This document shows positions 38,565 to 44,195 of a DNA stretch of 44,195 bases, in pieces. The stretch's first letter is position 1. The number at the start of each line of letters is the position of its first letter. The notes under the pieces were generated by a model, which saw only the letters and a list, made by a program, of their open reading frames with translations, searched no databases and had not been told where the DNA came from. Position numbers and translations under genes: made by a program. Source of the DNA: a virus; the IMG/VR virus record IMGVR_UViG_3300044611_000110, positions 1 through 44,195 of that record, one strand, 5' to 3'.

Positions 38565-39133
38565 CAGAAGTCGTCGTCCGTGTCCTCCGGGACCACAGGA
38601 GTCACGTTCGGGTCATTGGCTTTGTACCCCTTGGTCTGCCCAAACAGAGCAGCCACTTCGGTTTCACCAAGGTCACCCGTATCGACAGCAGCACCGCTGT
38701 TCAGGGCAATCACTTGGATGCCCACCAGCTTCAGACTGGTGCCGTAGGTGACACCATCTTTGAGCACATAGGGTTTCTGACGAAAGGCCAGCTTCACCTT
38801 GGAGCCGCTGTACAGGGGAGTGCTTTCATCGGTGATGGGGGTGCCCTCCGAATCGACCACAGGGGGACGAGTTTCGTCGTTCCAGTTGAACTTGACTTTG
38901 TATTTGCCTTCGCTCACTTCTTCCCAAGGTTCAGGCTTGAGCACGCTGCGCTTGGGGTTCTTCAGTTTCGATTCAGCCCATTTCAGGGTTTCAGTTCGAT
39001 CCGCTTCCAGCAGTTCGATCAGATGGTCGTCAACCAGGGCTCCAAGCGAGTAACCAAACTTGGAGGGTTTCATGACTGCCTGATAGCCCTCAAGGACAAC
39101 AGGATCTTTGGTGACGTGAACAGTTTGTGCCAT
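38564..39133 (-). CDS. Single-stranded DNA-binding protein (T7 gp2.5-like)
   Basis: Encodes 189 residues (T7 gp2.5 is 232). An OB-fold core is suggested by ALVDDHLIELLEADRTETLKWAESKLKNPK, then KVKFNWNDETRPPVVDSEG and KVKLAFRQKPYVLKDGVTYGTSLKLVGIQVIAL. The acidic C-terminal tail (PEDTDDDF, ending in Phe) is the conserved contact for polymerase and helicase. It starts on the RNA polymerase stop (TAATG). It coats single strands and coordinates the replisome. Confidence 0.95.
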   Translation of the reverse strand: MAQTVHVTKDPVVLEGYQAVMKPSKFGYSLGALVDDHLIELLEADRTETLKWAESKLKNPKRSVLKPEPWEEVSEGKYKVKFNWNDETRPPVVDSEGTPITDESTPLYSGSKVKLAFRQKPYVLKDGVTYGTSLKLVGIQVIALNSGAAVDTGDLGETEVAALFGQTKGYKANDPNVTPVVPEDTDDDF

Positions 39134-41472
39134 TAACAGAAAAAGTAGGTGGATTCAATCACGGATTCGGCCTCAAGGCCGCCGATGATCGGGGGGTCTG
39201 ATTGGGCACCGATTTGGTTTCCCCAATCAGTCAAGTAGTCGTGCTCTGCAAACAGGTGCATGTAGGTCTCTCGTACCAAAGTGGACAGGATCCCCATGTC
39301 AGTAGCCCTGCACAGCACTGAGTCGTGGATCAATGCAATGGGTGCATTGAACCTAAGGGTTGACAGGTGAAGCAGTGACGCATCCAAAGAATGGATCAGG
39401 TTGGGAGCTGTTGCGTTTTTATGGTGTGATAAGTCCACCTCGTCGGTATCCCCGACAGCGGCATGGATTTCACACGATCCAAGAAGTTGTAGCTGAATAC
39501 GAACTACATCTTTTTTCATTAGCTTTTGTGTGACGACAAACCCAGAGGGAGTCCTCCACGTCAGCACCTTTGCTCCTGCCTTTATGGCTTCTGCCACTTC
39601 GGCTTCGATCCATTTCATTACAGCCATAGGCCCAGGGACTACCTTGTTCATGGCGTCTCGTACAGCCTTTACGGTCGCGGTTAAATCGTCCTTTTTAACC
39701 TCAACACCCTTCTCCTCCAACGCTTCACGAATGTACCCACGGTTGGAGTATGGCTTCGCGTTGTAGGGGATGGTCATGACCGTTCGTTTGGTCACTTTGC
39801 GGTCCATGTATGGCTGCACAGAAGCAGGTACATGGGGCCTAGCAGCCTCTGCAATCACCTTGTAAGCATCTTGTGGTCGCTCGCTAGGCAAGACATTCAC
39901 AAGACGTGCTGTAGAGGCATCTCGGGCCAATCCAGCGAGGATCTGTAGACCGCTGCAGGTTGCATCTGTGGCGACCATCAGCCCCGTGTGCTGACGATCA
40001 CATTCAAGGATGCAGTGGTAATACTCCTCACAGGCAGCCAGGAATTGCCAAGGCTCTTCCGCTGCTTCCCATTCACTCAAGTTGTCAATGGGATCTTTGG
40101 CTACCCGTTTGATCAATTCCTTGTTCTCAGCCACCCATGCCTGCCGTTCCTGCATGGGGGCCTTGTCCAAACCGTAGGTTGTGGCCACTTGAAAAGCTAA
40201 CCATTCTTCGGCTTCGGGAGTGATGAACGACTCTTCGTAAAACCGAAGCAATGACTTTCCGAAGTCCGTATCCTGCGGTGTTAGAAATGCAGGAATTGGA
40301 AAAGCTCTTCCACGATAGTCAAACGACCAAGGAATAAAGAACTTCTCCCGCTCCTTGAAGATCTGAACAGCGTTCATTGTCATCCGTGTTCTCACGGATC
40401 GGTCAAACGCTTGGGCGTTGATGTTTCTCACCTCCGCTGCCCTTCGCCTGTAGTCCTTGCGAGAGTCGTAATTCTCAGCAATGTCTACGGGTTTGGGAGG
40501 TAGAGGTAATTCGACAATAGGGACAAACTTGCCAACTGAGATCTGCTTTTCCAGAAGCGTCTCAGCCACCCCAACGATAAACGGGTTAAGGCGGTAGGCC
40601 ACCTTCTGAATCTTGTTCAGAAAGGCGATAGGTGTTTCTCCCTGTATACACCCCTGATCGCCCCGGCGAACCATGTCATGGCCTCGCATGACTTCATTTA
40701 GCAGGTAGCCCCCACAGTGGTCTCTGCTCCAATCGTTCGGCTCGATCAGCATGGGCCAAGCCAACGGGCTGAACAGCTCGGCTTGCCCGACCACCTGATC
40801 CTTGATTTCTAGAAATTCAGGGGTTGGAACCACGTAGTTTTGACGTTTGCGTCCCTCTTGGCGCATGTCAGTCATGAACCAATTGGTCGCCTTGCAGACG
40901 CAATCCAGCAACCAGCCCCCAAGCTTGATGCGGTTGGCGCGGCCCCAGGCTTGCCAGTGGGGCACGTCGTAGCGGTTCATCAAGGTGCTGATCACCTTCA
41001 CCTTTTGGTGAGTTCCAATGGAACGGTGCCAGTAGTTGTCTTGCAGGATCTGCAGCAACCCCGGCACCTCCCGCTCGTAGTGCCGCATCATGCACTCCGC
41101 TTCCAAGGCCGCCCCGATGGCATCGGTCACGTTCTGGATTTGGGAGCTGGCGGGCTTGACTCCAAACACCTTGTCGAAGGTCACCTTGCAAGCAATGGCA
41201 GCGGCCACCTCCGCTTCCACATCCGTGAGGTACTGCTTGATCTCCGCAAAGGCAACCCCAATCTTGCCTTCGTGGATGCGGTTGTTGGTTTCTTCGATCC
41301 GTTTGACCACCAACGGAATCAAAGTCTGGATAGACGCTACGCCGTAAACCGACGCACTTGCGTACTCCTTTTCTTCCAGTCGTTGCGTGTTGTCCCGTAG
41401 CTGCTTGAGGCCTTGTCGGATCTGATCGCGTTCCAATCGGATCTGCTCATCGATCTGAGCCGGTGTGGGCAT
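39133..41472 (-). CDS. Single-subunit RNA polymerase (T7 gp1-like)
   Basis: Transcribes middle and late phage genes. It encodes 779 residues from ATG 41472; T7 gp1 is 883. Catalytic Asp near 503 in ATDATCSGLQ; the Arg/Lys and Tyr of the fingers near 562 and 571 in KRTVMTIPYNAK; the second catalytic Asp near 717 in ALIHDSVLC. The recognisable FDYRGRAFPIPAF phrase lies near 390-405. The frame extends to a TTG at 41556 within the terminator, so the internal ATG is preferred. A 20-nt stretch (40641-40660) also occurs after terL. Confidence 0.97.
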   Translation of the reverse strand: MPTPAQIDEQIRLERDQIRQGLKQLRDNTQRLEEKEYASASVYGVASIQTLIPLVVKRIEETNNRIHEGKIGVAFAEIKQYLTDVEAEVAAAIACKVTFDKVFGVKPASSQIQNVTDAIGAALEAECMMRHYEREVPGLLQILQDNYWHRSIGTHQKVKVISTLMNRYDVPHWQAWGRANRIKLGGWLLDCVCKATNWFMTDMRQEGRKRQNYVVPTPEFLEIKDQVVGQAELFSPLAWPMLIEPNDWSRDHCGGYLLNEVMRGHDMVRRGDQGCIQGETPIAFLNKIQKVAYRLNPFIVGVAETLLEKQISVGKFVPIVELPLPPKPVDIAENYDSRKDYRRRAAEVRNINAQAFDRSVRTRMTMNAVQIFKEREKFFIPWSFDYRGRAFPIPAFLTPQDTDFGKSLLRFYEESFITPEAEEWLAFQVATTYGLDKAPMQERQAWVAENKELIKRVAKDPIDNLSEWEAAEEPWQFLAACEEYYHCILECDRQHTGLMVATDATCSGLQILAGLARDASTARLVNVLPSERPQDAYKVIAEAARPHVPASVQPYMDRKVTKRTVMTIPYNAKPYSNRGYIREALEEKGVEVKKDDLTATVKAVRDAMNKVVPGPMAVMKWIEAEVAEAIKAGAKVLTWRTPSGFVVTQKLMKKDVVRIQLQLLGSCEIHAAVGDTDEVDLSHHKNATAPNLIHSLDASLLHLSTLRFNAPIALIHDSVLCRATDMGILSTLVRETYMHLFAEHDYLTDWGNQIGAQSDPPIIGGLEAESVIESTYFFC
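40641..40660 (-). repeat. 20-nt exact repeat, copy in RNA polymerase gene
   Basis: Codes for the DQGCIQ part of RNA polymerase and is identical to 3458-3477 after terL. Confidence 0.85.
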
Positions 41473-41557
41473 AGGCGTGAGTGTGAAGAATTGTGTGAGA
41501 ATTGGACTCGACTGGGCGCCTAATCCGTGCCCAAGTGGAGAGATTGAAAACCTCAAT

Positions 41558-41580
41558 AAAAACGGGAGGTCTCCCTCCCG
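41558..41580 (-). terminator. Rho-independent terminator between attP and RNA polymerase
   Basis: On the minus strand CGGGAGG-GAGA-CCTCCCG is followed by TTTTT. It would stop transcripts from the early region and integrase before RNA polymerase, unless they read through or start anew downstream. Confidence 0.9.
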
Positions 41581-41621
41581 AATGTGCCTGTCTAATGCTG
41601 AGGTGGATGCTTAACGAACTG

Positions 41622-41663
41622 TGATTTTGAGTCGAGTCCGTCTACCAATTCCGGCACGCTCCC
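41622..41663 (-). other. Candidate attP: 5' half of tRNA-Leu(CAA)
   Basis: Read on the minus strand, these 42 nt are the 5' half of a tRNA-Leu: acceptor strand GGGAGCG, TG, D arm CCG-GAATTGGTAGA-CGG, then the anticodon arm with loop CTCAAAA (anticodon CAA). The match stops two bases into the 3' anticodon stem, so no tRNA can form. It lies directly downstream of the integrase. The cyanophage P-SSP7 is known to carry a 42-bp tRNA-Leu match beside its integrase, so the same integration target is likely. Confidence 0.85.
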
Positions 41664-41679
41664 AAGGGATTCCAGCGAT

Positions 41680-41693
41680 TCTCAACGTTGAGA
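41680..41693. repeat. 14-bp palindrome between integrase and attP
   Basis: TCTCAACGTTGAGA, a perfect palindrome, flanked by CCCAAG (41661-41666) and CTTGGG (41697-41702) as outer arms. Possible integrase or regulator site. Confidence 0.7.
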
Positions 41694-41745
41694 CCGCTTG
41701 GGAATTTCATGATAGCAGCCGAAATCTCCACTGCTTTAGACGGAC

Positions 41746-42687
41746 CTAGATACGCACGTCGCCTTGCGTGCTGACCCCACCTGTGTTATGGACGTATCGC
41801 TCGGTCATGGCCACTGTGGAGTGACCCATGGCGAACTTAACATCCATGATCGGAGAGCCTGCCGCGATGCGCCAGGTGCCGTAGGTGTGGCGGAATGTGT
41901 GGAACACATGGGCATCGGTGATGCCATCCACACGGGTCTTGACCACAGACTTCACCGGATTAAATGCCCGGTTGATCTGTTGCCTGTTGATCCAATCCTC
42001 TCCAAAGATCAAATCGTTTGCGTCCTTGCGGTGGCACAAACGCTCGGCAAGTTCATGAATCCGCTCCGGTAATTGAACGGTTCGGTAGTTGCCCGTCTTG
42101 GTGATGGAGTCCTTCGTACCACCAACGTGGATCAAAGGTACGTTGAGTTTGTAGTCAAAGTCCCGGCGCTTTAGCTTGCGAAGTTCTTGTTGACGCAGCC
42201 CTGTGTAGGCCGCAAACAACATCAAATCCGCCAACTTGTGACGCTCGGTCTCCTTGGCGTACCCACACAACTGCTCGACATGCTCTTTGGTGTACCATTC
42301 GGTACGGCCCATTGTTTCTGCCTTGCGTGGGATGCGTGGCATCTTGGCAAGCATGTCGTGATCCAAGCACTCCTTAAAGGTGGTGCTCAAGAATGAACAG
42401 AACTTGTTGCAGCTGGAATCACTCCAGTTGTAATGGTCCTGCATCTCGTTGATGATTTGCTTGACGTTGAAGTCGTCAGCAATGTACGCAATCGGAATCG
42501 CGTCGCTCTCACAAAACTTCTCCAGCTGTTGCATGAAGCGTCTTGCGTTGTGCCCTTGACTGTTCTTCTCTCGATTGAGAGACCACTTGTCATGGGTTGA
42601 AAGAGCAAATTGGAAGGCGTGCTGAAAGGTCTTGATGGTGGACTTTTCAGGCTTGCGCTCCATTAATTTCTCAAGTCTTGTCGCCAT
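41746..42687 (-). CDS. int: Tyrosine integrase
   Basis: Site-specific recombinase that could integrate and excise the phage. It encodes 313 residues from ATG 42687. The complete catalytic set is present: R165 (AAYTGLRQQEL), K192 (GGTKDS), H263-x2-R266 (FHTFRHTYG), H289 (MGHS) and Y298 (ERYVH). The N-terminal about 125 residues form the core-binding SAM-like domain. The frame continues upstream to a TTG, but the ATG overlaps the MarR gene by only 17 nt and is preferred. The attP-like tRNA fragment follows about 80 nt downstream. Confidence 0.95.
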   Translation of the reverse strand: MATRLEKLMERKPEKSTIKTFQHAFQFALSTHDKWSLNREKNSQGHNARRFMQQLEKFCESDAIPIAYIADDFNVKQIINEMQDHYNWSDSSCNKFCSFLSTTFKECLDHDMLAKMPRIPRKAETMGRTEWYTKEHVEQLCGYAKETERHKLADLMLFAAYTGLRQQELRKLKRRDFDYKLNVPLIHVGGTKDSITKTGNYRTVQLPERIHELAERLCHRKDANDLIFGEDWINRQQINRAFNPVKSVVKTRVDGITDAHVFHTFRHTYGTWRIAAGSPIMDVKFAMGHSTVAMTERYVHNTGGVSTQGDVRI

Positions 42688-43033
42688 ACAGCAATTGGGT
42701 GATGTGGTGAACAAGCTGCTCCCCTTTTGGGGTCAGTTTGAGAATCGTTCGGCGGCGATCGAGTGGGTCTACCTCCTTGCTAATCAGGTTCAAGCCAGGC
42801 TTGCGAAGCCTGTGAAAACGAGAGAGCCAGTCGGTGTTGCGGCTGCCGCTGGAGGTTGGGAAGTTTAAGTCCTCCTCCAAGGCGACCTTGTGACACTCAT
42901 TGTGGGAAGCTACGTATAAGAAAGTGGCTACCACTTGAGCTGGCATCTCTCGATCAAGGACACGAATAGCTTCGATGACCTTGAGCAGTCGCTCGATCTG
43001 CGGATTGCTGAGCTGTCTTTTGAGTGGATCCAT
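42671..43033 (-). CDS. MarR-like winged-helix protein
   Basis: Encodes 120 residues. The helical N-terminus (NPQIERLLKVIEAIRVLDREMPAQVVATFLYVASHNECHKVALEEDLNFPTSSGSRNTDWL) contains the helix-turn-helix, and the wing signature DRRRTILKLTPKGEQLV is near 92-108. MarR-type proteins bind DNA as dimers and often respond to ligands. Position just before int and after the small early genes fits a phage regulator; comparable proteins occur near the start of related cyanophage genomes. Its target is unknown; the dyads at 1.8-2.1 kb or 41.7 kb are candidates. Confidence 0.85.
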   Translation of the reverse strand: MDPLKRQLSNPQIERLLKVIEAIRVLDREMPAQVVATFLYVASHNECHKVALEEDLNFPTSSGSRNTDWLSRFHRLRKPGLNLISKEVDPLDRRRTILKLTPKGEQLVHHITQLLYGDKT

Positions 43034-43169
43034 CGTATCGAGGACGACAGTCCCATTCTAGACGCAACCTACCCAAGTGGACAAGGTGTGCAGCGGGATC
43101 TCGCCACGCATCCCAAAAGGATTCCTGATCAATGCCCACGTACAACGGGCCGAAACACACAAGAGTCAT
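42954..43169 (-). CDS. Small hypothetical protein (71 aa), overlaps MarR-like gene
   Basis: Encodes 71 residues, starting MTLVCFGPLYVGIDQESFWD at ATG 43169, coupled by ATGA to the 46-residue gene upstream. Its last 80 nt overlap the MarR-like gene in another frame; there the sequence becomes Arg/Gln-rich and probably unstructured. The first 50 residues look like a genuine small domain (Trp, Phe, alternating hydrophobics). Function unknown; start and reality are moderately supported by the coupling. Confidence 0.6.
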   Translation of the reverse strand: MTLVCFGPLYVGIDQESFWDAWRDPAAHLVHLGRLRLEWDCRPRYDGSTQKTAQQSADRATAQGHRSYSCP

Positions 43170-43306
43170 GTATCTGAATCTTCAAGTATAAACGTATCAT
43201 CTACAAGTTGCTCTTGGGCTAGTCTTAGAAGTTCTTCACTATTCGGATGTTGCATAACGTCCGTGATCAGTTGCTGCAACCGGCGTTCAAAGGTGGTTTC
43301 ACTCAT
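43166..43306 (-). CDS. Small hypothetical protein (46 aa), early region
   Basis: Runs ATG 43306 to TGA 43166. It encodes MSETTFERRLQQLITDVMQH, then PNSEELLRLAQEQLVDDTFI and an acidic end LEDSDT. Predicted to be two short helices. Both ends overlap neighbouring genes (8 nt and ATGA), the pattern of the whole early operon. No family recognised. Confidence 0.7.
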   Translation of the reverse strand: MSETTFERRLQQLITDVMQHPNSEELLRLAQEQLVDDTFILEDSDT

Positions 43307-43607
43307 TGGTAAGTTTCATGGTGAGGTGGTGGATGCTTTCGTGGTCACATACAGTGAACTCGATACCAGGCGTTTTCATTAACTGTGCGACCTTGTTTTC
43401 AGCCGCTGAATGACGCTGATAAACGTGTTCTTTAATCGCTCCAGTTTTACAATCACTCACACGAATGATGCAGCAGACACTAGACGGTAGCTCCCAATTG
43501 GCTACCTTCCATGTCATTAACTCCTCAAACGTGTGAGGCTCAAACATGTCGTCAGGTGCTTCGTAATATGAGTCCCAATTGTTGGGATAGTACCGCTTAC
43601 CATTCAT
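43299..43607 (-). CDS. Hypothetical protein (102 aa), early region
   Basis: Encodes 102 residues from ATG 43607. The N-terminus is aromatic and acidic (MNGKRYYPNNWDSYYEAPDDMFEPHTFEELM), followed by a beta-like stretch (SVCCIIRVSDCKTGAIKEHVYQR) and a helix, then SIHHLTMKLTNE. The phrase NWDSYxxAPDDxFxPHTFEE occurs in short cyanophage early proteins of unknown role. It overlaps both neighbours by 8-11 nt, so it is translated as part of the operon. Confidence 0.75.
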   Translation of the reverse strand: MNGKRYYPNNWDSYYEAPDDMFEPHTFEELMTWKVANWELPSSVCCIIRVSDCKTGAIKEHVYQRHSAAENKVAQLMKTPGIEFTVCDHESIHHLTMKLTNE

Positions 43608-43773
43608 CTCTAAGCTTCACATTTATGAGCTGGTCGTTGTGTTCTTGGGACAGCTCAAGAGCAGACCACGCTGCATCTTCTGAGCTGGGCGCTAAAATGT
43701 ATCTAGTACCAGAACGCAAGGTAATTTCATACACTTTTGGCACAACAGCAAAAGTCATACAATTACCTTTCAT
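43597..43773 (-). CDS. Small hypothetical protein (58 aa), early region
   Basis: Runs ATG 43773 to TAA 43597. It encodes MKGNCMTFAVVPKVYEITLR, SGTRYILAPSSEDAAWSALE, then LSQEHNDQLINVKLRDEW: a likely beta-alpha-beta small domain in which YEITLRSGTRYILAPSSEDAAW is the most ordered part. A later ATG at residue 6 is possible. It is coupled to both neighbours (ATGA upstream, 11-nt overlap downstream). Function unknown. Confidence 0.7.
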   Translation of the reverse strand: MKGNCMTFAVVPKVYEITLRSGTRYILAPSSEDAAWSALELSQEHNDQLINVKLRDEW

Positions 43774-43997
43774 GTGTTTTTATTTGTAGCCTTGGCAGCA
43801 GTCCTGCGGCCTTGAGGCTTCTGGATTTCTTCCTTTATCGGTTCTTCTACCTCACTCTTCGTTTCGTTTGTGACTGCTTGCTGCAGCACATCCCTGAGTT
43901 CTTTGTACTGCGCTGCCCATTGATGTTGGGGAAAGTAATACAACCAACATTCAATCGCGTTGAGAAGAAGCCAACGCTCGCTTTTTTGTTCGGTCAT
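43770..43997 (-). CDS. Hypothetical protein (75 aa), early region
   Basis: Encodes 75 residues from ATG 43997. The N-terminal 45 are helical and aromatic (SERWLLLNAIECWLYYFPQHQWAAQYKELRDVLQQAV). The rest is charged and then basic (EEPIKEEIQKPQGRRTAAKATNKN), probably a disordered tail. It overlaps the 43-residue gene by ATGA and the 58-residue gene by ATGA. No family recognised. Confidence 0.7.
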   Translation of the reverse strand: MTEQKSERWLLLNAIECWLYYFPQHQWAAQYKELRDVLQQAVTNETKSEVEEPIKEEIQKPQGRRTAAKATNKNT

Positions 43998-44125
43998 AGG
44001 TGGTGAGAAATACGATCAAGACGGTGGATGATGTTGAGCAGTTGTGTCCTTGTGAGAAGGCCACGGTGGAAGTCCTTGAGGAATTGATCCTCTAAGTCCT
44101 TGAGTTGTTGGTGGTTGTATTTCAT
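43994..44125 (-). CDS. Small helical protein (43 aa) spanning the contig join
   Basis: Runs from ATG 44125 (equivalent to 80 in the left copy) to TGA 43994. It encodes MKYNHQQLKDLEDQFLKDFH, then RGLLTRTQLLNIIHRLDRIS and HHL: charged amphipathic helices. It is the gene cut by the contig ends. The left copy holds its first 80 nt, and its ATG overlaps the stop of the 64-residue gene (ATGA). The only base differing between copies is a silent Phe codon change, which supports real coding. Confidence 0.7.
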   Translation of the reverse strand: MKYNHQQLKDLEDQFLKDFHRGLLTRTQLLNIIHRLDRISHHL

Positions 44126-44195
44126 TCTTTCAACTCGTCTGGATCTTCATCAACAAAGTCAAGTTCGTGAACCTCAATGATGAATTGATCTGTTG
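44046..44195. repeat. Right copy of contig-terminal direct repeat
   Basis: Matches 1-150 with one mismatch (44069). It also carries the 3' part of the 64-residue gene found complete at 77-271. Confidence 0.9.

Follow-up and report, generated by a model that had tools for sequence, protein, structure and literature searches.

The window analysed here, the whole 44,195-base record IMGVR_UViG_3300044611_000110 of an uncultured T7-like cyanophage, carries beside its integrase gene a 41-nt segment that we interpret as its attP. This assignment of positions 41623–41663 is based on an exact 41-nt match in 119 host tRNA-Leu genes, on the adjacent int gene, and on an arrangement shared with relatives. 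The kind of site is already known, and the window provides another example of it; the main interest lies in the conserved promoter and terminator that accompany the half tRNA gene, and in natural proviruses of related phages. As the best explanation, we consider it likely that the attP core, with its cassette of promoter, half gene and terminator, recombines with the host tRNA-Leu(CAA) gene. The features concerned, in minus-strand order, are these:

42671–43033, minus strand: MarR-like transcriptional regulator gene, overlapping int (phrog_9665, E=8.5e-47)
41746–42714, minus strand: tyrosine integrase gene int (PF00589, E=8e-22; phrog_1 integrase, E=1.5e-39), with six catalytic residues
41737–41745, plus strand: inverted copy of the tRNA D arm (TAGACGGAC) beside the int stop codon, candidate integrase accessory site
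41709–41717, minus strand: extended −10 element TGCTATCAT (TGnTAnnnT, conserved in relatives), which lies 45 nt ahead of tRNA nt 1 and which we propose as promoter for the rebuilt tRNA
41680–41693, no strand assigned: 14-bp palindrome TCTCAACGTTGAGA, lying in the leader that links promoter to tRNA half and folding as a hairpin there
41623–41663, minus strand: attP core, the 41-nt 5′ half of tRNA-Leu(CAA), running from nt 1 to slightly beyond the anticodon loop and exactly matched in 119 picocyanobacterial contigs
41553–41580, minus strand: predicted intrinsic terminator CGGGAGG-GAGA-CCTCCCG-TTTTTATTGA, separating attP from the RNA polymerase gene, at the same position in 168/203 relatives
41504–41513, plus strand: second inverted partial copy (GGACTCGACT) beyond the terminator, tentative candidate accessory site
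39133–41472, minus strand: T7-like single-subunit RNA polymerase gene (start codon inferred), downstream of attP and terminator (PF00940, E=6.6e-66)

Profile searches of the window identified a T7-type RNA polymerase, a Gp10A-like capsid protein, psbA and the tyrosine integrase, and matches to PF00940, PF21703 and PF05396 (RNA polymerase, capsid and assembly proteins) place the phage among the T7-like Autographiviridae. Its nearest isolate is Synechococcus phage S-CBP3 (Lirvirus). On the minus strand, the MarR-like gene is followed by int (42714–41746), an 82-nt gap, the tRNA half (41663–41623), the terminator (41580–41553) and the RNA polymerase gene; a MarR-like gene is annotated beside int in most int-carrying relatives. 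The integrase, whose real start codon may be internal to the open reading frame at 41746–42714, keeps all six R-K-H-R-H/W-Y residues (R174, K206, H272, R275, H298 and Y307). A preliminary description of this DNA had called the enzyme catalytically complete, and its residues indeed fit the pattern of an active tyrosine recombinase.

The attP core reads GGGAGCGTGCCGGAATTGGTAGACGGACTCGACTCAAAATC on the minus strand, from 41663 down to 41623, and occurs once in the window. Its parts are the 5′ strand of the acceptor stem, a D arm whose stem is CCG/CGG, the anticodon 5′ stem CTCGA, the loop CTCAAAA (anticodon CAA) and two further nucleotides. We scanned 84,980 prokaryote species genomes (one genome per species) for the exact 41-mer and obtained 119 stretches, with titles including Synechococcus, Cyanobium, Prochlorococcus, Vulcanococcus, Aphanothece and uncultured cyanobacteria. 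Judging by their flanks all 119 are picocyanobacterial, and every copy runs on with GAGCGCC into an intact tRNA-Leu. One contig labelled Bifidobacterium breve (CALPNT020000032.1) has tRNA-Leu flanks that match Synechococcus and is probably a mislabelled bin. The base preceding nt 1 varies among hosts and the phage diverges from the host 2 nt beyond the anticodon loop; the limits of the identity are therefore the 5′ end of the tRNA and the anticodon loop. A 41-nt match far exceeds what chance or general tRNA conservation would give. The preliminary description had thus recognized a real attP-like tRNA-Leu(CAA) 5′ half beside the integrase, at a length of 42 nt that we correct to 41, and the alignment to host genomes it called for places the match within intact picocyanobacterial tRNA-Leu genes in 119/119 cases.

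Sites of this class have an attP directly downstream of int and a perfect match of at least 39 nt to the first half of a picocyanobacterial tRNA-Leu; here the attP begins at 41663, directly downstream of int (41746–42714, minus strand), and matches at 41/41 positions in the 119 contigs. The same int–attP arrangement occurs in P-SSP7, S-TIP37, S-CBP3, SS120-1 and about 200 contigs, and three isoacceptors are used: CAA by the window phage and S-CBP3, with SS120-1 as a CAA variant; UAA by P-SSP7, P-SSP2 and P-SSP3; and CAG by S-TIP37, S-CBP1, S-CBP2, S-SRP01 and S-TIP28. The same 41 nt of tRNA-Leu(CAA) are also found in three viral contigs of a different kind (L132, L134 and L139), which have neither the terminator nor the promoter motif; another phage group may use this attB too.

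For comparison, viral contigs and isolates supplied 203 distinct half-tRNA attP sites (L226 and L131 being half sites on a reading of their sequences), which we collapsed to 72 sequence clusters. A second, independent set was collected by integrase similarity and holds 35 loci with a 5′-half attP and 20 without the strict motif; counts in this set, and among the reversed-tRNA relatives described below, include related sequences.

In 108/118 host loci a −10 element (TAnnnT) lies 8–10 nt before the tRNA, and the phage has none at that position. As the phage–host match begins exactly at tRNA nt 1, leaving out the host −10, a rebuilt tRNA would lose its host promoter. The preliminary description had reasoned that phage DNA must supply the promoter after integration, and this is borne out by the missing host −10 and by a conserved extended −10 further upstream. 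TGnTAnnnT is present in 12/13 CAA, 85/104 CAG and 52/70 UAA sites, against shuffle expectations of 1.3, 5.8 and 11.9, and in none on the antisense strand; the motif is short, and shuffles produce it in 17% of the AT-rich UAA-class phages. A generic sigma-70 promoter scan returned nothing at the site, and the element emerged only through comparison.

A hairpin with a T-run starts 23–44 nt past the tRNA half in 168/203 sites, built from many different stem sequences. Controls were low (4/203 on the opposite strand, 1/189 upstream, <1% in shuffles). Counted by cluster, where the terminator lies about 32 nt after the tRNA half, the extended −10 is found in 61/72 (antisense 0), the terminator in 61/72 (antisense 3) and both in 51. 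The same scan finds several other terminators in the window genome, and within 39000–44195 terminator-like sites are as numerous as the shuffle mean, so that the significance of this terminator derives entirely from its conserved position. In the integrase-anchored set it is present in 32/35 loci with a 5′-half attP versus 8/20 others (Fisher p=7e-5). From their sequences, at least 5 of those 8 look like variant or partial attPs, with a degenerate 5′ half in L468 and L469 and a partial core in others. Another of the 8 is L480, in which the region downstream of int (after 2349) holds a sense-orientation 3′ half of tRNA-Leu(CAG) and then a terminator.

We propose that the integrase would recombine attP with the identical 5′ part of the picocyanobacterial tRNA-Leu(CAA) gene, with strand exchange most likely around the anticodon loop, so exchanging the 3′ halves. 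In one product, the phage promoter and the phage 5′ half that follows int would be continued by the host 3′ half, giving an intact, working tRNA gene presumably driven by TGCTATCAT. The other would place the host promoter and host 5′ half ahead of the phage terminator, which would halt the displaced tRNA promoter before it reaches the phage RNA polymerase gene and yield a short dead-end transcript. This proposal builds on what the sequences display: the exact attP/attB match, the catalytic residues, the conserved extended −10 and terminator, and attL/attR in relatives. Somewhat speculatively, we put forward the possibility that such an exchange cassette puts transcription of the host tRNA-Leu under the control of the provirus and at the same time protects the phage RNA polymerase gene, and that some T7-like cyanophages persist in nature as real prophages.

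The chief alternative is that the attP is genuine and the promoter and terminator are ordinary early-operon signals with no role in integration, the terminator ending the MarR–int transcript and the −10 belonging to the RNA polymerase gene. Both elements are intergenic, where operon signals are expected, and the terminator, positioned between int and the following gene, may do no more than stop int transcription. However, with the terminator between them, the −10 would make a poor promoter for the RNA polymerase gene. Syn5 and S-CBP42, which have int and no attP, show no convincing terminator after int, and 11/12 reversed-tRNA relatives lack one in the int orientation (6/6 with a complete tRNA-Leu, 5/6 with a tRNA-Ser fragment). 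The terminator also follows int whichever side the RNA polymerase gene is on, before int in SS120-1 and S-TIP28 and after it in others. We regard this alternative as unlikely.

The reversed-tRNA relatives are of two kinds. In six (L486, L488, L492, L498, L502 and L503) a complete tRNA-Leu(CAG) gene facing int replaces the half tRNA, possibly an alternative way to preserve host tRNA function after integration. In L513–L516, L519 and L521 a reversed tRNA-Ser fragment lies beside int, which would mean a different attB and a 3′-half style.

The 14-bp palindrome noticed beforehand is real (41680–41693), and most CAA-class relatives retain it in the form of an imperfect inverted repeat (TCTCAnnnnTGAGA). 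The CCCAAG/CTTGGG arms noticed with it are present but not conserved; we gave them no weight as a functional feature, since they are absent outside the near-identical contigs L121–L125. Inverted partial copies of D-arm/anticodon-stem sequence are clear in the CAA class, weak in CAG and absent or ambiguous in UAA. In CAA sites the upstream copy aligns to its own tRNA with a score of 17.9, versus 13 for other tRNAs and 12.4 for shuffled sequence (weaker in CAG), and the downstream copy scores 18.8 versus 14.5–14.9 and 13.4; the latter was not seen in the CAG or UAA classes. Tentatively, these copies may be accessory (arm) sites of the integrase.

We searched 400 Cyanobiaceae genomes with integrase queries, which gave 8 distant matches; the match in one assembly, G363, became clear with a profile built from 11 cyanophage integrases. 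T7-like proviruses were found in two of the 400 assemblies, G280 and G363. Other matches (e.g., G039 and G280:C48) had no tRNA-Leu in the flanks examined, and the window integrase alone, used as query against five host genomes, detected no prophage. Host flanking genes (murA, argD and folC in G280; pyrC and trpA in G363) were named from their translations, not by database search.

In G280, contig C12 (52,265 b) carries tRNA copies at 2526–2610 and about 48082–48124, the junctions lying 45.5 kb apart. On the attL side, a host murA-argD-folC flank (GC about 0.6) leads to a tRNA-Leu(CAG) 5′ half and the hairpin GGGGCCACAAGCCCC-TTTTTTT. The interior encodes ssb, primase, DNA polymerase, exonuclease, portal, capsid, tail and terminase genes and the RNA polymerase, and the other end consists of int, TGCTATATT and a complete tRNA-Leu(CAG). 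With core genes of full length and both attachment junctions present, this T7-like provirus is apparently complete. In its integrase the first catalytic H is replaced by K, and there is no room for a MarR-like regulator between its RNA polymerase gene and int. Over the 3 kb compared, the contig is identical to IMG/VR UViG 2716884610_000003. In 9/9 relatives of G280, the tRNA-Leu(CAG) beside the same murA flank is empty. The rebuilt tRNA has a D-loop variant missing from the host-side half, indicating that its 5′ half came from the phage, and a reading of the sequences confines the crossover to 26 bp (GGTAGACGCGCTAGTTTCAGGTACTA) that extend across the anticodon loop.

Two further observations concern this host. 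The start of another G280 contig (C79; L439/L422) contains the native tRNA-Leu(CAG) 3′ half, within the first 90 bases and preceded by unrelated sequence, and the native neighbouring gene; a second element seems to have inserted at the same anticodon loop, in 3′-half style. In the G280 relatives (L403–L411), murA is flanked within about 1.5 kb by tRNA-Leu(CAG) and tRNA-Leu(CAA) targets, the CAA gene differing from the window 41-mer.

The G363 provirus has its attL and attR on two contigs. C8 contains pyrC, a tRNA-Leu(UAA) 5′ half, a hairpin with a T-run and a T7-like RNA polymerase gene; C25 contains terminase, a MarR-like gene, int and a complete tRNA-Leu(UAA), followed by the trpA neighbourhood. 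Transaldolase is also present. Both predicted recombination products are thus found in G280 and in G363. The G280 provirus resembles S-CBP42/SS120-1/Syn5 (about 72% capsid identity) and the G363 provirus falls on the S-CBP3 side (82% terminase identity). Within a metagenomic contig (IMGVR_UViG_3300034198_030546, 1627–4262), a tRNA-Leu(CAG) half and a terminator connect host murA with a T7-like phage, a junction that we read as a natural attL, the third found. As assembled, the G280 and G363 sequences would derive either from lysogens or from infected cells. Real prophages at tRNA-Leu(CAG) in G280 and tRNA-Leu(UAA) in G363 would, if true, speak against the view that picocyanobacteria contain no intact ones.

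At the window phage's own tRNA-Leu(CAA) target, no attL/attR junction appeared in the 119 genome contigs, all of which hold empty sites, or in viral contigs, where the only match to a complete tRNA-Leu(CAA) is a host copy; the junctions with host DNA that the preliminary description proposed to look for are absent from both sets. In relatives, S-TIP37 integration was shown by PCR and depended on int and attP, and P-SSP7 integration was also shown, with no stable lysogens obtained (PMC8776855). The temperate or formerly temperate lifestyle suggested beforehand is therefore only partly supported: these experiments show integration but no stable lysogens, and the related proviruses occur in two host assemblies, neither of them at the target of the window phage. 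Surprise at such a site in a group usually isolated as lytic is out of date, such attPs having been described since P-SSP7. The only repressor candidate in the window is the MarR-like regulator (phrog_9665). The window phage is most likely lytic with occasional integration, its own capacity to integrate being what we infer from the site and the enzyme.

That the site is a degenerate relic, the tRNA half passively inherited after integration was lost, would agree with the lack of an integrated copy of the window phage type and with a group mostly isolated as lytic. We find this very improbable: the site is identical to living host genes at 41/41 positions and conserved in related contigs, the integrase is intact, and relatives do integrate, two of them in experiments (PMC8776855) and others as natural proviruses.

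In free phage, the cassette would be expected to yield an RNA that starts at the −10, runs across the tRNA half and ends at the terminator, and one might suppose that the half is kept as a small RNA (5′ half plus terminator hairpin) for lytic growth, with a secondary role as attP. Identity to the tRNA nevertheless stops at or just beyond the anticodon loop in all three isoacceptor classes, as recombination predicts, and the fold of leader and tRNA half is not unusual (z=−1.8), which makes this scarcely credible. An Rfam search of the site returned chance-level matches only. Relatives with a complete reverse-orientation tRNA-Leu beside int raise the thought that the half is no attachment site but what is left of a tRNA gene once encoded by the phage; this is barely conceivable given the same stop in every class, the exact match to local host genes and the absence of any complete tRNA from the window (ARAGORN). 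Recombination at a host tRNA-Leu gene remains our preferred explanation.

The closest known systems are other T7-like cyanophages. In P-SSP7, S-TIP37 and the window phage alike, the first half of a host tRNA-Leu comes after int and matches the host perfectly, the gene being tRNA-Leu(UAA) in P-SSP7 and tRNA-Leu(CAG) in S-TIP37, in contrast to tRNA-Leu(CAA) in the window phage and S-CBP3. The P-SSP7 attP was reportedly first described by Sullivan et al. in 2005. S-CBP3 shares with the window phage the 41-nt attP, extended −10, terminator and MarR–int–attP–RNA polymerase order, whereas the integrases are only 50% identical and the DNA about 70–78%. First-half tRNA-Leu attPs are present in 11/13 int-carrying T7-like cyanophages (Shitrit et al. 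2021, PMC8776855), and the tRNA-Leu matches of such phages have been used for host assignment (Mizuno et al. 2013, PMC3861242). The word "terminator" is absent from PMC8776855, and we did not find in published work the start of the match exactly at tRNA nt 1, the conserved promoter and terminator at these attPs or the two natural proviruses, though Sullivan et al. 2005 may mention a terminator. T7-like cyanophages are abundant marine phages for which prophage life is a standing question, the published view being integration without lysogeny. With its promoter, half tRNA and terminator, the layout gives a testable explanation of how a phage might integrate without killing its host or activating its own polymerase, and lysogeny can be sought in two concrete genomes, those with the natural proviruses.

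Beyond cyanophages, tRNA-dependent lysogeny of mycobacteriophages likewise involves integration in a host tRNA gene whose function must survive; in that system the broken gene is replaced by a tRNA gene of the phage (PMC10865867), whereas here the gene would be rebuilt and no complete cognate tRNA is carried in the window. Islander lists 159 islands with 5′ fragments versus 3760 with 3′ fragments (PMC4383910). Islands and archaeal pTN3-like elements in tRNA 5′ halves share the element-borne 5′ fragment and the anticodon-loop crossover (PMC4383910, PMC8371274). In pTN3-like elements the tRNA is expressed from element DNA via the integrase promoter, unlike the separate int–attP promoter and terminator proposed here (PMC8371274). 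A phage placing a host tRNA under its own promoter has been described as rare in bacteria (PMC8371274), and the tRNA-Leu attP layout would be a clear case of it.
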